A stretch of 55,366 bases of DNA, from NCBI GenBank assembly GCA_009839325.1, contig VXPW01000065.1, positions 49,609 to 104,974 on the forward strand. The letters run 5' to 3'. Positions 10,018 through 16,795 of this stretch are shown in pieces. A model generated the notes under the pieces. It ran no database searches, was not told the origin of the DNA, and saw only the letters and a list, made by a program, of their open reading frames with translations. How positions within the stretch are numbered: position 1 is the stretch's first letter; every line of letters starts with the position of its first letter. The DNA comes from Rhodospirillales bacterium. Lineage in GTDB: Bacteria; Pseudomonadota; Alphaproteobacteria; TMED109. Both the position numbers and the translations under genes were made by a program.

Positions 10018-13000
10018 CTAGCAGTCCTCCGGGGCGTACCCAAGATTGGCGGCAAGCGTTTCCTCGGCTTCCGGCACCGAGAACCCTTTTCGCCGGGCGT
10101 AGTCCTCCACCTGATCGCGGCCAATCCTGCCCACGCCGAAGTATCTCGTCTCCGGATGGGCGAAGTAGAGACCGGAGACGGACGCGGCCGGCATCATCGC
10201 GAAGTTGTTGGTGAGGGTAATGCCGGCGCGGGCGTCGGCGTCCAACAATTGAAACAACGTGCGCTTCTCGCTGTGATCGGGACAGGCCGGATATCCCGGA
10301 GCCGGGCGGATGCCTTGGTACGCCTCGTCGATCAGGGCCTCGTTGTCCAGGCGCTCGTCGGGCGCGTAACCCCAGAACTCCTTGCGAACCCTTTCGTGCA
10401 TGCGTTCTGCAAAGGCTTCGGCGAGACGATCGGCCAGCGACTGGAGAAGGATTTCGGCGTAGGCATCCTGGCCTTCCCTCGCGGCTTCCATACCGATGCC
10501 GGCCGTGACGGCGAACGCGCCGATGTGATCGGCAAGCCCCGTTGTCTTGGGGGCGACGAAATCGGCCAGGCAAAGGTTGGGGCGGCCGGCGGACTTGTCC
10601 ATCTGCTGGCGAAGGAAGACGAACCGCGCCCGCACGTCGGACCGGGTGGCGTCGGCGTACACCTCGACGTCGTCATCGACGGCGTTGGCCGGGAACATCC
10701 GGATGACCCCCCGAGCTTCCAACAGCTGCTCGTCCACGATCCGCCGCAGCATGGCCTGGGCGTCCCGCAAGAGCCCCTGGGCGGCCTCGCCGACCACCGG
10801 GTCATCCAGAATCTGGGGCCACTTGCCCGTGAGTTCCCAAGTGTGGAAGAACGGTGTCCAGTCAATTCGCTCCACAAGCTCATCGAGGTCGTAGGTCGCA
10901 AAGTGGAGCAGATCGGTGTCGCATGGAGGCGGCGGGATGCCGTTGTCCCAGTCGATGCGGATTCGCCGCTTCCGCGCTTCCGCAAGCGGCAAGCGGTTGG
11001 AGCGTTCGCGTCGATCACCGTGCTGGCGGCGGATCCTGCCGTATTCCTCCTGCACTTCGGCAACCAGCGTCGGGGCGCGCGCGCTGCTGGCGAGGCTGGA
11101 CACGACGGTAACGGCGCGCGATGCGTCGGCCACGTGAACGACCGGGCCGGAGTACTCCGGCGCGATCTTCACCGCCGTATGGGCCTTGGAGGTGGTCGCG
11201 CCGCCGATCAGAAGCGGGATGCGGAGCGCTTCGCGCTCCATCTCGCCGGCGACCAGGGTCATTTCACGGAGCGACGGCGTGATCAGCCCTGACAGTCCCA
11301 CCATGTCGGCGTCGTTGTCACGCGCGGCCTCCAGGATTGCCGCAGATGGAACCATGACGCCAAGGTCAATGATCTCGAAGTGGTTGCACCCGAGCACGAC
11401 GCCGACGATGTTCTTGCCGATGTCGTGCACATCGCCTTTCACGGTGGCAAGCACGATGCGCCCCCGGGCGCGGGCCCGCCCCTGCTTGCGCGCTTCGATG
11501 AACGGCTCCAGGTGGTTAACTGCCTGTTTCATGACCCGGGCGCTCTTGACGACTTGGGGCAGGAACATCTGCCCCGAACCGAACAGGTCGCCCACCCGGC
11601 TCATGCCGTCCATCAACGGGCCCTCGATGACGTCGAGCGGATCCTCCACTTGCTGGCGGGCGATCTCGACGTCCTCGACGATGAACTCGGTGATTCCCTC
11701 GACCAGCGAGTGCATCAGCCGCTCACTGACGGGCTTGCGGCGCCATTCGGGGTCCGTTTCGTCTTCGGTCTCGAGGGCACGGGCTGGTCCGGCCATCTCC
11801 AGCAGACGCTGCGCGGCGTCCGGCTGTCGGTTGAGGACGACGTCCTCCACCGTTTCCCGGAGCGGCGCGGGAAGATCCGCGTAGACGGCAAGCTGCCCCG
11901 CGTTGACGATCGCCATGTCGAGTCCGGCCGCGATGGCGTGGTACAGGAACACCGAGTGCATGGCCTTGCGGACGCCGTCGTTGCCGCGGAACGAAAAGGA
12001 GAGATTGGAGAGACCCCCGGACACGAGGCTTCCGGGCAGCGTTGCCTTGATCTGACGGCAGGCCTCAAGAAACGCGACCGCGTAATCGTCGTGCTCCTCG
12101 ATGCCGGTGGCCACGGCAAAGATGTTGGGATCGAAGATGATGTCCTCGGGGGGGAAGCCGACCTCGTCCACCAGGATCCGGTATGCGCGCCCGCAGATCT
12201 CGACCTTTCGTTCGGCCGTCTCAGCCTGTCCCTGTTCGTCGAACGCCATCACCACGACGGCAGCGCCGTGTCGCAGGACCGTTTCTGCCTGCTGGCGGAA
12301 CACCGCCTCGCCTTCCTTGAGGCTGATCGAATTCACGATGGGCTTGCCCTGGACGTTCCTGAGGCCCGCCTCCAGTACGGACCAACTCGAGGAATCCAGC
12401 ATCAGCGGCACCCGGCTGATTTCCGGCTCCGCGGCAATCAGGCGGAGGAACCGCGTCATCGCTTCTTCCACATCGAGCATCGCTTCGTCGAGATTGATGT
12501 CGATGATCTGGGCGCCGTTCCGGACCTGGTCGCGGGCCACCTCCAGCGCCGCGTCGAAGTCCCCGTCCAGCACCAGTCGCCGGAACCGGGCCGAACCGGT
12601 GACGTTGGTGCGCTCGCCGACATTGACGAAGCCGGTGTCCTGGTTGATGGCGAGCGGCTCCAGTCCCGACAGGAAGCAGTACGACATCGTCGGCGCCGCC
12701 GTTCGCGGAGCTTTGTCGATGACGGCTTCCCGGATGGCGGCGATGTGCTCGGGCGTGGTCCCGCAGCAACCGCCCGCGATGTTCAGCCATCCGTTCTCGG
12801 CGAACTCGCCGAGGTCGGCGGCCATGCTCGTCGGCGTTTCGTCGTAGCCGCCGAAGGCGTTGGGGAGCCCCGCATTCGGATATAGACACACCGGCCGGTC
12901 GGCGAGATGAGCGATCTCCTGCAGATGCGGGCGAAGCTCCCGCGCCCCCAGCGCGCAGTTGAAGCCGATCGAAAACGGCCGGGCGTGGCGCACGGACGCC

Positions 13001-13710
13001 CAGAACGCTGCGGGTGTCTGGCCGGTCAGCGTCCGGCCCGACGAATCCGTGATCGTGCCGGAGATCATGACCGGTAGCCTGATCCCGGCGCGATCGAACA
13101 CCTCGGCGATGGCATGCAGCGCGGCCTTGCCGTTCAGGGTGTCGAACACCGTCTCGACCAGCAGCATGTCCGCGCCGCCCTCGATCAAGCCGAGTACGGC
13201 CGTCCGGTACGCGCGGCGGAGTTCGTCGTAGGTGACGTTGCGGGCGGCCGGGTCTTCGACCACCGGTGAAACCGAAGCTGTCCGATTGGTCGGACCGAGG
13301 GCTCCGGCCACGAAGCGCGGCCGGCCGTCGGTTTCGTGGCGGGCGGCGACCTCCCGGGCGATGCGGGCCGCCGCGCAGTTGATCTCTCGGGCCAGATCTC
13401 CGGTCCCGTAGTCCGCCTGGGCGATGGACGTCGCGCTGAAGGTGCAGGTTTCGATGATGTCGGCGCCGACTCCGAGATAGGCGTCGTGAACATCCGCCAC
13501 CACGTCCGGACGGGTCAGGCAGAGGATGTCGAAGTTGCCCGCAAGGTCGTGCGGATGCTCCCGGAAGCGCCCTCCTCGGTAGTCACGTTCCTCGAGACCC
13601 CGCCCCTGCAACATGGTGCCGAACGCGCCGTCAAGCAGCAGAATCCGTTCGCGGATGCGGCGCTCCAGCTCCCGCCGCCGGACGGCGGCATCCGCAGCCG
13701 GCCCGCTCAT
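10018..13710 (-). CDS. metH: Cobalamin-dependent methionine synthase
   Basis: Transfers a methyl group from 5-methyl-THF through methylcobalamin to homocysteine. The N-terminal homocysteine domain carries the zinc cysteines (the Cys in FNCALG and the pair in GGCCGT at about residue 311). The pterin-binding domain follows, with the [11 protein letters not shown] motif. The B12 domain has [11 protein letters not shown], whose axial His falls at about residue 760, essentially the E. coli position. The C-terminal activation domain has [12 protein letters not shown], for reactivation by S-adenosylmethionine. I chose the ATG at 13710 because it overlaps the metF stop by four bases and leaves the family-typical N-terminus; the product is about 1,230 residues. 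Translational coupling to metF is likely. Confidence 0.97.
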
Positions 13711-14594
13711 GCGTTCGGGTCCGCCGCCCCGGCCGACGGCGCCTCGATGCGTCCCCGGAGGCCCAGCCACCAGCAGATCGCGTAACTGAGCCGGGCGCGG
13801 TTCAACGTGTAGAAGTGGAATGCGTTCACGCCCTCGCGCCGGAGATCTTCGCATTGCGACACCGCAGCGCCGGCGGCAATCATTTCGCGGGTGCGGGCGT
13901 CGGTGTCCAGGGGTTCGAAGATCGCCACCATGTGCGGCGGGATCGTCACGCCGCAGCGGCGGCTGAATTCCGCGACCCGCGCGAAATCGGTGACCGGCAG
14001 TATCCCGGGCACGATCGGCGCCGTAATGCCGGCGGTGCTACATCGGTCCCGGAAGCGCAGGAAACACGCATTGTCGAAAAAGTATTGCGTGAGAACCCGA
14101 TCGGCACCGGCGTCCACCTTGGCCTTCAGGTTCTCGATATCCGCTGCCGGTGACGGAGATTCGGGGTGTGGCTCCGGATAGCCTGCCACCGAAATCTCGA
14201 AATCGGCGGCAGCCCGGATGCCGCGCACGAGATCGGCCGCATGGCGGTAGCCGCCCGGTTCCGGGCAGTACCGATCGGTGCCTTTCGGCGGGTCGCCTCG
14301 GAGTGCCACGATGTGTCGGATCCCGAGCGACCACCAGCGCCGGGCCAGGGCGTCGGTCTGAGACCGGGTCGACCCAACGCAGGTCAGATGAGCGGCCGGC
14401 GGCACGGGAAGCTCCTGGCGGATCCAGCAGACGAGCCGTTCGGTGCGCGAGCGGGTGGAGCCGTCGGCGCCATAGGTGACTGAAAAGAAGTCGGGTCCGA
14501 GCCGGACCAGCAGATTCATGACCCGCTGCAGGCGCTGCACGGCGCCCGCATCCGCGGGCGGGAAAAACTCGAAGCTGATGGACGGCCGTGTCAT
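13707..14594 (-). CDS. metF: 5,10-methylenetetrahydrofolate reductase
   Basis: FAD enzyme that makes 5-methyl-THF, the methyl donor for MetH. ISFEFFPP at residues 5-12 and [16 protein letters not shown] contain the conserved catalytic Glu and folate/NADH-site residues. AAHLTCVG and [13 protein letters not shown] are further family signatures. Its 295 residues are typical of the bacterial enzyme. The ATG at 14594 has no visible Shine-Dalgarno, but it overlaps the TGA of a 49-codon upstream ORF that has a perfect one. metH follows with another four-base overlap, so the order is leader ORF-metF-metH. Confidence 0.96.
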
Positions 14595-14740
14595 CGTGAC
14601 CCGGACGGTGGTGCCGATGCGGCGGGCCCCGTCGGGACGCCCCGAAATGGCCGCGGCTGCCGAAGGCCGGCGGAACGCTCAGGGGCTGACGGCCAAACCG
14701 CGCGCTTGCCCGAAGACCCGGGCCCGGAGCCGTGCGACAT
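14591..14740 (-). CDS. Upstream leader ORF coupled to metF (hypothetical)
   Basis: A 49-codon ORF starting at ATG 14740 behind a near-perfect Shine-Dalgarno (AAGGAGGT at 14752-14745, four bases before the ATG). Its TGA overlaps the metF ATG (ATGA). The peptide is rich in Gly, Ser, Pro and Arg with no recognisable domain, so it looks like a leader whose translation, not its product, matters. Since metF itself lacks a ribosome site, ribosomes ending here would reinitiate on metF. A frame remains open upstream to a start at 14875, but that start would lie before the predicted transcription start. Confidence 0.5.
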   Translation of the reverse strand: MSHGSGPGSSGKRAVWPSAPERSAGLRQPRPFRGVPTGPAASAPPSGSR

Positions 14741-14868
14741 GAGTACCTCCTTCGGCGCGGCGCTGAGGAGGCTGACGCCCGTGATTGCCGTCCGGCCGCA
14801 TCTCCCCAGCGGGAAACCACCTTGCACGGGCTGCAGGTTGGTGGGGTGCGTCAACCCCTCAGGATGCA
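14741..14868 (-). promoter_or_regulatory. Candidate riboswitch-like leader RNA of the metF-metH operon
   Basis: As RNA on the minus strand, positions 14868-14797 can fold into a closed four-helix junction. P1 is GCATC (14867-14863) with GATGC (14802-14798). P2 is GGGGT/ACCCC (14858-14843). P3 is a 10-bp stem with two bulged A residues (14842-14816). P4 is TCCC/GGGA (14814-14803). Downstream, CCTCCT (14771-14766) can pair with the Shine-Dalgarno AGGAGG (14751-14746). Alternatively CTCCTCAG (14770-14763) can pair over eight bases with CTGGGGAG (14809-14802), which would break P4 and P1. The two states exclude each other, as in translational riboswitches. I find none of the core motifs of SAM-I, SAM-II or SAH riboswitches. 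The ligand is unknown. Folded by eye. Confidence 0.45.
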
Positions 14869-14874
14869 TTGACA

Positions 14875-14903
14875 ACTGTAGTGACGGGGTATCAACGGGT
14901 CAA
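14875..14903 (-). promoter_or_regulatory. Sigma70-type promoter of the metF-metH operon
   Basis: On the minus strand TTGACC (14903-14898) and TACAGT (14880-14875) are spaced by exactly 17 bases. The transcript would start near 14868, which coincides with the 5' edge of the folded leader and leaves a 5' UTR of about 130 bases before the leader ORF. Confidence 0.6.
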
Positions 14904-14910
14904 GATACGC

Positions 14911-15205
14911 AACGCCTGGAGGCGACCGTACCGAGCGGCCATCGTATGACACCGGTACGGCGGGTTGCCAGGGGGGCAGGAACGTCGGCGCCAACCGCAC
15001 GTCCCCTCGTCTCAAGGCCGCCCGCGGGCCCGGCCGGTGCGCTTGGCGTGACTGCACCGTGAGCGCCAGCGAGCCCCGGAAGGGTCACCGATAGGCCGCC
15101 GACCGACCGCACAACCGCTCCCGTGTGTTGCCAATAGAATGCCCCGGGGCGTGCCAGGGCATTCGTGCTCGACGTGGCCGTCGACTTCACTTGGACCCAG
15201 ATCCC
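14911..15205. other. Intergenic region between divergent metF leader and gamma-glutamyltransferase gene
   Basis: No gene is supported here. It holds two perfect eight-base inverted repeats. CCGTACCG/CGGTACGG (14926-14933 and 14953-14960) lies just upstream of the metF promoter. GAATGCCC/GGGCATTC (15137-15144 and 15157-15164) lies about 40 bp before the downstream gene and has the palindrome GCCCCGGGGC inside it. Either may be an operator or an RNA hairpin. Confidence 0.4.
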
Positions 15206-16795
15206 ATGCGTGACCTTCACCTGCCTGGCCGCTCCCCGGTGCGCGGAACCAACACCGCTGCCGCGACGTCTCATCCATTGGCCACCTTGGCCGCCGTCGA
15301 CGTGCTGCGCGAAGGCGGCAACGCGATCGACGCGGCGGTAACCGCGGCGGCCGTCCTGGCGGTGGTGGAGCCCCATTCAACCGGAATCGGGGGCGACGTC
15401 TTCTGCTTGTACGCACCGGCCGGCGGCGGTGAAGTCATCGCCCTGAACGGTTCGGGCCGCGCGCCCTCGGCGGCAGCGGCAGGCGCGCTGCGGGACGCCG
15501 GGTTAGGGGCGATCCCGTTCACCAGCCCGCACGCGGTGACCGTCCCCGGTGCCGTGCGCGCCTGGGAGCGCCTACTCGCGGACCACGGCCGTCTCGACCT
15601 CGACCGCGTGCTGGCGCCGGCCATCGCCTACGCGATCGAGGGCTATCCGGTCGGCGACGTGATCGCGGACGCCTGGAGCCGCGAACGCGACAAGCTTCAC
15701 GCGGACCCGGACGCTGCGGCCGTGTTTCTCCCGCAGGGAAGTCCGCCCGGCGCGGGACAGGTGCATCGCCAGCCGCGCCTCGGCGAGACCATGCAGGCCA
15801 TCGCCAGTCACGGGGCAAAGGCCTTCTACGAAGGGCCGGTGGCACAGGACATTGTCGGCAAGCTACGGACAGTGGGCGGCGTGCACACGGAGGACGACTT
15901 CGCGGCGGCCGCCGTCAACTACGTGACGCCCATACGTACGCGGTACCGCGGGGTGGATGTGTACGAGTGCCCGCCGAACGGGCAAGGCATCATCGCGCTC
16001 CTGATGCTGAACGTGCTGAGCGGGTTCGATCTGGCGCGGCTGGACCCCTTGGGCCCGGAGCGCTTTCACCTTGAAGCCGAAGCGACGCGACTGGCGTACA
16101 GCGAACGTGCGGCGCGACTGGCGGATCCGGAGCACGCCGAGGTGCCCGTGGAGGCCCTGCTCAGCGACGGACACGCCGAAGCGCTCCGCGCGCGGATTGA
16201 CGTGCAGCGGATGACTCCGGGCCTTGCGCCGCCGGAATTGCCCGAACACCGGGATACGGTCTACCTCACCGTGGTGGATGCCGACCGAAACGCGGTGTCG
16301 TTCATCAATTCGCTGTTCCATTCGTTCGGAAGCGGGATCCTTGCACCCGGATCCGGTGTGATGCTGCACAATCGAGGAGCGGGCTTTTCACTCAGCCCCG
16401 GCCATCCGAACGAGCTCATGCCGGGCAAGCGCCCCATGCATACGATCATCCCCGCGATGGCCGTGCGGGGCGATCGCGCCTGGATGCCCTTCGGCGTGAT
16501 GGGCGGGCACTTCCAGCCAGTCGGCCAGGCGCATTTTTTGACCAATGTCCTGGACTTTGGCATGGATGTGCAGGAGGCGCTGGATTGCCCGCGGGCATTC
16601 CATTTCGACGGTGTGCTGAGTTGTGAGCGGGGGGTGCCCCGCTCGACGCGAGACGCGCTGGAGCGCCTCGGACACACGGTTGACGTCCCTGACCTGCCGT
16701 TCGGCGGCGGCCAAGCCATTTCGATCGATCCCGACAATGGGGTCTTGTCGGCGGGCTCCGACCCTCGCAAGGACGGCGCGGCCATCGGCACATAG
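15206..16795 (+). CDS. ggt: Gamma-glutamyltransferase family Ntn hydrolase
   Basis: Cleaves or transfers the gamma-glutamyl group of glutathione and related amides. The proenzyme self-cleaves at a conserved Thr, here the Thr of HRDTVYLTVVD (residue 351), to give two subunits. GNAIDAAVTAAAVLAVVEP and GIGGDVFCLY are N-terminal family signatures; RGAGFSL and KRPMHTI are in the small subunit. The start at 15206 is chosen because homology begins at once (AAATSHPLATLA); the product is 529 residues. There is no signal peptide, unlike the periplasmic enterobacterial enzyme, so it is probably cytoplasmic, like YwrD-type members. A glutaredoxin and a Nit-type amidase follow directly. Confidence 0.92.
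   Translation: MRDLHLPGRSPVRGTNTAAATSHPLATLAAVDVLREGGNAIDAAVTAAAVLAVVEPHSTGIGGDVFCLYAPAGGGEVIALNGSGRAPSAAAAGALRDAGLGAIPFTSPHAVTVPGAVRAWERLLADHGRLDLDRVLAPAIAYAIEGYPVGDVIADAWSRERDKLHADPDAAAVFLPQGSPPGAGQVHRQPRLGETMQAIASHGAKAFYEGPVAQDIVGKLRTVGGVHTEDDFAAAAVNYVTPIRTRYRGVDVYECPPNGQGIIALLMLNVLSGFDLARLDPLGPERFHLEAEATRLAYSERAARLADPEHAEVPVEALLSDGHAEALRARIDVQRMTPGLAPPELPEHRDTVYLTVVDADRNAVSFINSLFHSFGSGILAPGSGVMLHNRGAGFSLSPGHPNELMPGKRPMHTIIPAMAVRGDRAWMPFGVMGGHFQPVGQAHFLTNVLDFGMDVQEALDCPRAFHFDGVLSCERGVPRSTRDALERLGHTVDVPDLPFGGGQAISIDPDNGVLSAGSDPRKDGAAIGT

Follow-up and report, generated by a model that had tools for sequence, protein, structure and literature searches.

The metF-metH genes of this Rhodospirillales bacterium are preceded by a leader that, judging from its sequence, almost certainly belongs to the SAM-I/IV riboswitch family (RF01725). 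The leader probably works as a translational OFF switch that acts on metF and metH by way of a coupled upstream open reading frame (uORF). This settles the leader as a known riboswitch type. As a riboswitch it is unremarkable, and what it controls is slightly out of the ordinary: it seems to provide an example from the SAM family of a riboswitch whose direct target is a coupled uORF rather than the main gene. Should this hold, such switches would be missed wherever the regulated start is sought at the annotated gene alone.

Family identity and aptamer architecture

Rfam 15 was scanned with cmscan over the entire window (the whole stretch of 55,366 nucleotides that was analysed) and over positions 14700-15000. 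A single family, RF01725, reached its threshold, with a match at 14872-14771 on the minus strand (57.1 bits against a gathering threshold of 41.1, covering model positions 1-99 of 99); this is the reported match, overlapping families of the same clan, SAM-IV included, being suppressed by the tool, so that there is no separate SAM-IV score. All features of the leader, uORF, metF and metH described below are also on the minus strand. On this match, the leader is an already catalogued riboswitch type and a new class is excluded. The original prediction had proposed a new class, a reading that is rejected because the scan gave a strong match to an existing family, above its curated threshold. The prediction had reported no match to SAM-I, SAM-II or SAH riboswitches; this leaves out SAM-I/IV, which it did not name and which does match.

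SAM-I/IV was described in 2010 as a variant that mixes features of SAM-I and SAM-IV and is without the P2 internal loop (PMC2864571), and a later paper ascribes to it an undivided P2 plus a P4 (PMC6890682). As in these descriptions (PMC2864571, PMC6890682), P2 consists here of five stacked pairs (14858-14854 with 14847-14843, within a hairpin at 14843-14858) and has no internal loop. The closing helix P1 (5' strand 14863-14867, 3' strand 14798-14802) had been predicted at exactly these positions and is the consensus P1 of RF01725, as seen in its alignment and in the pair counts given below. The other helices of the claimed four-way junction can form as well: P2 and P3 according to the RF01725 alignment, and P2 and P4 (14803-14814; 14814-14811 with 14806-14803) in a constrained fold. 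P3 (14816-14842) contains an AA/U internal loop. In SAM-I structures, the core of the SAM pocket consists of the AA of P3 and GGUGG; both are present here, and CCAACC and GGTGG are invariant in 34/34 aligned aptamers.

The prediction had overlooked P5, PK-2 and a longer competing helix. P5 (14787-14796; 14796-14794 with 14789-14787) is placed by the RF01725 alignment and by two counted pairs. In SAM-I/IV, the loop of P3 and the 3' tail also pair with each other as PK-2, and here GCCCGUG in the P3 loop (14825-14831) faces CACGGGC in the tail (14777-14783), giving seven pairs (14831-14825 with 14783-14777). In SAM-IV, PK-2 joins the same two elements (PMC6890682).

The J1/2 segment reads CUGAG, against AAGAG in the RF01725 consensus, a consensus position that is not counted as family-defining; relatives scoring above the RF01725 threshold differ among themselves at its first two positions. 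SAM is presumed to be the ligand on the strength of family membership.

Covariation and distribution

The aptamer was found in 7/7 genomes of the genus, in 12/28 of the order and in 35/385 sampled from the class, where one genome (G311) has four SAM-I/IV matches. A narrow motif search placed it upstream of 5/79 named metF loci, a count that is not independent of the same-genus loci already included.

Thirty-four aptamers, this one among them, were aligned, with three same-genus copies (L005, L008 and L009) omitted as identical to that of L001. Across the 15 pairs of P1, P3 and P5, 96.1% of cells are paired and six pairs show changes on both sides, values that none of 500 shuffles equalled in either case, while the count of further pair types gave a less clear signal (19/500 shuffles); these shuffles ignore the relatedness of the aptamers. 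P1 is paired in 100% of cells, with both-side changes in two of its five pairs, and the two P5 pairs that were counted are paired in 98.5%. P2, P4 and PK-2, being poorly aligned, were kept outside the count. PK-2 was instead assessed by swapping loops and tails among 31 loci, the genus being represented by L001 alone: the mean loop-tail score was 12.47, compared with 10.30 (s.d. 0.38) after swapping, and 0/5000 swapped sets scored as high. A cruder count found at least four contiguous pairs in 29/31 loci, where swapped sets averaged 22.8 with a maximum of 29. P1, P3, P5 and PK-2 covary across relatives.

Promoter and leader conservation

A promoter-like TTGACC-17 nt-TACAGT (14875-14903) is the only sigma-70-like match in 14600-15130 (shuffle mean 0.0, s.d. 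0.2), and both hexamers are present in the alignment of all seven same-genus genomes. Transcription presumably starts near the first base of the aptamer. Identity between the two clades of the genus is 92% in the leader, against 59% in the uORF and an average of 54% in the 150 nt that precede the aptamer. A gamma-glutamyltransferase gene (15125-16795) lies divergent from the leader.

Expression platform

The anti-Shine-Dalgarno sequence CCUCCU (14766-14771) and the Shine-Dalgarno sequence AGGAGG (14746-14751), the latter 5 nt upstream of the uORF AUG, are as originally described and are invariant in 7/7 same-genus genomes. In unconstrained folding, CCUCCU is covered by a helix of 15 pairs and one bulge, in which 14862-14848 pairs with 14778-14763. 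The 5' strand of this proposed SAM-free helix, CUGAGGGGUUGACGC (14848-14862), is made up of J1/2, the 5' strand of P2 and part of the P2 loop; the 3' strand, GCGUCAGCCUCCUCAG (14763-14778), has a U bulged at 14769 and includes the anti-Shine-Dalgarno. Since the helix uses up J1/2 and the 5' strand of P2, it excludes the aptamer fold. Both J1/2 bases that depart from the consensus are paired within it.

The helix is whole in six of the seven same-genus genomes and has 14 pairs and one mismatch in the other (L010). The duplex of the first 35 nt of the aptamer with the tail has an energy of -33.2 kcal/mol, compared with -20.3 (s.d. 3.3) in 500 shuffles; across the genus it ranges from -32.1 to -37.5 kcal/mol, and in none of the seven genomes was this matched by more than 0.2% of 500 shuffles. 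By the cruder measure of contiguous length, the longest match between platform and aptamer is 10, which 53/1000 shuffles equalled. In eight non-genus loci, the shuffle fractions for the duplex run from 0.018 (L094) and 0.058 (L112) up to 0.990, and the SAM-free helix thus looks mostly, perhaps not only, genus-specific. Within the genus, the platform is too invariant to give a covariation signal, the seven genomes representing one genus.

The switch had originally been sought in an octamer (14770-14763) pairing with 14809-14802. It forms eight pairs at -11.5 kcal/mol, but contiguous matches of at least eight occur in 404/1000 dinucleotide shuffles and the pairing drops to five pairs in three of the seven same-genus genomes (L004, L010 and L012). 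As the main switch, the octamer is displaced by the longer conserved helix 14862-14848/14778-14763.

When P1 was imposed and the strands of PK-2 were held single, CCUCCU paired with AGGAGG at a probability of 0.91-0.92 in 7/7 genomes, a constrained calculation and not a prediction of the bound state. Unconstrained folding of RNA that ends just before the AUG paired the anti-Shine-Dalgarno with the 5' part of the aptamer at 0.80-0.83 in 7/7 genomes and left the Shine-Dalgarno open at 0.66-0.68. When the RNA was extended 12 to 90 nt past the AUG, again unconstrained, four genomes (L004, L008, L009 and L010) gave the covered Shine-Dalgarno a probability above 0.5 for at least one length; in L010 it was favoured at every length from 12 nt onwards. 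Because the folds of longer RNAs are mixed, co-transcriptional folding is assumed.

A probably coupled uORF ahead of metF and metH

The start codon at 14740 opens a uORF of 49 codons (14591-14740), whose TGA (14593-14591) overlaps the ATG of metF as ATGA. The methylenetetrahydrofolate reductase gene metF (13707-14594; TIGR00676, 316 bits, cut-off 293.7) overlaps in turn the methionine synthase gene metH (10018-13710; NF007024, 1977.7 bits, cut-off 1497), which was scanned as a longer ORF (10018-13854) with a match from residue 58 and has its start set by the overlap. The original prediction is upheld in that this is a metabolite-sensing leader of metF-metH whose sequence agrees with translational OFF control; the prediction missed that 14740 belongs to the short ORF and not to metF, and the first controlled gene would be the overlapping uORF.

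The uORF-metF ATGA is found in 7/7 same-genus genomes, although the length of the uORF varies (49, 58 and 59 codons) through indels of 30 and 3 nt. The overlap of the metF stop with the metH start (13710-13707) is ATGA in 4/7 and GTGA in 3/7. Across the seven genomes, anti-16S energy is -12.3 to -12.6 kcal/mol at the uORF (-12.6 here), compared with -1.7 to -4.4 at metF and -3.9 to -5.8 at metH. Among 800 positions inside the metF of L001, 34.6% match the energy of the metF start and none matches that of the uORF; the metF gene's own Shine-Dalgarno is thus at background level.

The uORF has a dN/dS of 0.43-0.81, below 1 in 9/9 within-clade pairs, and of 0.69-0.78 in the two between-clade pairs computed, values far above the 0.07-0.15 of metF (10 pairs). 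In the other two frames (six pairs each, without L001), 8/12 values exceed 1 and four are lower (0.94, 0.56, 0.95 and 0.66). The frame stays open in all seven genomes in 387/5000 shuffles of alignment columns, and the other frames are often open too, so an open frame is by itself unconvincing evidence. The frame and the end of the uORF are kept and its peptide hardly, a pattern that suits a landing track for ribosomes. The peptide has no NCBIfam match.

Two other roles for this ORF were rejected. An amino-acid attenuator was considered; Pro, Ser, Ala and Gly are abundant in the peptides, and beyond the start Met, only the peptide of L008 contains a Met, and just one. An in-frame N-terminal extension of metF could begin at ATG in L005 and L009 and at TTG in L008, and is absent from 4/7 genomes, hence not conserved.

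Among the best 80 of 115 matches to the MetF protein, the nearest from outside the genus reach at most 59% identity, and most are labelled Proteobacteria, Gammaproteobacteria or Steroidobacteraceae, with one Alphaproteobacteria at 58%. These labels may point to a transfer of metF.

Riboswitch loci outside the genus

A first ORF with a Shine-Dalgarno-like word lies within 160 nt in 28 of 30 non-genus SAM-I/IV loci, L094 and L105 having none. It overlaps the next ORF by 4 nt in L098, L106, L110 and L116, where the first ORFs are 113-307 codons long. In L007, an ORF of 51 codons runs 8 nt into the next, which has its own AGGAGG. By eye, none of the 30 loci links a short uORF to a recognised methionine gene through a 4-nt overlap.

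The contexts of these riboswitches are varied. In four AT-rich relatives from the same family (L006, L007, L011 and L014), the aptamer is followed by small ORFs or by another gene, not metF, and the hairpin-like sequence and T run after it probably form a transcriptional platform. In L003, from another genus of the family, the riboswitch adjoins a metF-like gene and there is no uORF; CCCTTCT and AGAAGGG face each other around the Shine-Dalgarno. The riboswitch of L013, L113, L115 and L116 precedes a gene whose product starts MPIKIP-D-LPA, which we take to resemble the start of homoserine O-succinyltransferase.

Proposed mechanism and alternatives

In the absence of SAM, the aptamer's 5' part (14862-14848) would pair with the tail (14778-14763), hiding the anti-Shine-Dalgarno and leaving AGGAGG open. 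With SAM, P1-P5 and PK-2 would form and release the tail, and CCUCCU (14771-14766) would cover AGGAGG (14751-14746) and turn translation off. The covered site would be the start of the 49-codon uORF. Ribosomes that finish the uORF at AUGA would restart on metF, and those that finish metF would restart on metH; because the restarts are chained, one switched site would set three coupled genes. We infer the folding order, translation of the uORF and reinitiation, and consider the mechanism as a whole to be probable. It might be extended to a two-input device, in which SAM is read by the aptamer and termination-reinitiation through a nearly sequence-neutral uORF is obligatory. metF and metH would then also depend on the capacity to reinitiate, for instance through initiator Met-tRNA, and methionine would be sensed twice; we regard this as rather doubtful.

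The uORF is dispensable if the SAM-I/IV riboswitch controls metF directly, with the short ORF arising by chance in GC-rich DNA and the start at 14740 unused. Open frames are common in this DNA, as the column shuffles indicate, the peptide is poorly conserved, and the metF-like gene (identified by eye) that adjoins the L003 riboswitch has a Shine-Dalgarno-like AAGG of its own. However, the uORF AUG follows the strong Shine-Dalgarno by 5 nt, while metF starts about 150 nt away and has a site of its own that is equalled by a third of the positions inside the gene; the ATGA overlap also persists throughout the genus with indels in multiples of three. These points make direct control of metF unlikely. 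Control at the level of transcription, by a terminator or Rho, has a precedent of sorts in L006, L007, L011 and L014, where the T runs lie at most 40 nt from the aptamer, and a blocked uORF could expose the RNA to Rho. At the metF-metH leader, by contrast, 14600-15130 holds no intrinsic-terminator-like site, the 120 nt after the aptamer hold no six-T run in any of the seven same-genus genomes, and the platform covers a Shine-Dalgarno; a transcriptional switch therefore seems improbable.

A variant aptamer with a changed ligand would explain why J1/2 is off consensus at two positions; in the spermidine riboswitches, which derive from SAM-I, the distinguishing changes lie in J1/2 and in the internal loop of P3 (PMC10853860). 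Those two positions, however, read GA, AG, UU and others in alphaproteobacterial relatives, the AA of P3 and GGUGG are preserved, the leader stands before metF and metH, and both altered bases also pair within the SAM-free helix. We find a change of ligand very hard to credit, and retain a translational OFF switch acting through the uORF.

Comparison with known systems

The leader has the aptamer sequence and secondary structure of SAM-I/IV as catalogued (RF01725) and described as the SAM-I-IV-variant (PMC2864571), including the undivided P2, P5 and PK-2. It differs in its J1/2 (CUGAG, where the family has AAGAG) and in that the switched ribosome site is that of a uORF, an output seen in none of the 30 non-genus loci. 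With SAM-IV, as presented in PMC6890682, it has in common the binding core, P5 and PK-2; SAM-IV, however, has P2a/P2b and PK-1 and lacks P4, while here P2 is undivided and P4 can form, so that the combination marking SAM-IV is not what is seen. In the titles and abstracts surveyed from the open-licence literature, no SAM riboswitch acting through a coupled uORF is named, and in a review that covers SAM riboswitches and uORFs, the uORF passage concerns attenuation.

In Mycobacterium tuberculosis, a B12 riboswitch covers the Shine-Dalgarno of uPPE2, a uORF that overlaps ppe2 by AUGA; according to the same source, translation of ppe2 depends on uPPE2, mainly via termination-reinitiation, as reporter fusions support (PMC11260477). 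The two systems are alike in placing a uORF's Shine-Dalgarno under a translational OFF switch, here a proposed one, in the AUGA overlap and in a main gene without an obvious Shine-Dalgarno (PMC11260477), and this layout, with the uORF Shine-Dalgarno in the platform and the uORF stop overlapping the next start, is found in 7/7 same-genus genomes. The aptamer and the ligand are different. In ppe2, the site is freed by a purine-rich stretch overlapping the B12 box (PMC11260477), whereas here this part would be played by the 5' half of the SAM aptamer, and a second overlap extends the arrangement to metH. The resemblance to ppe2 is one of working, not of aptamer kinship.
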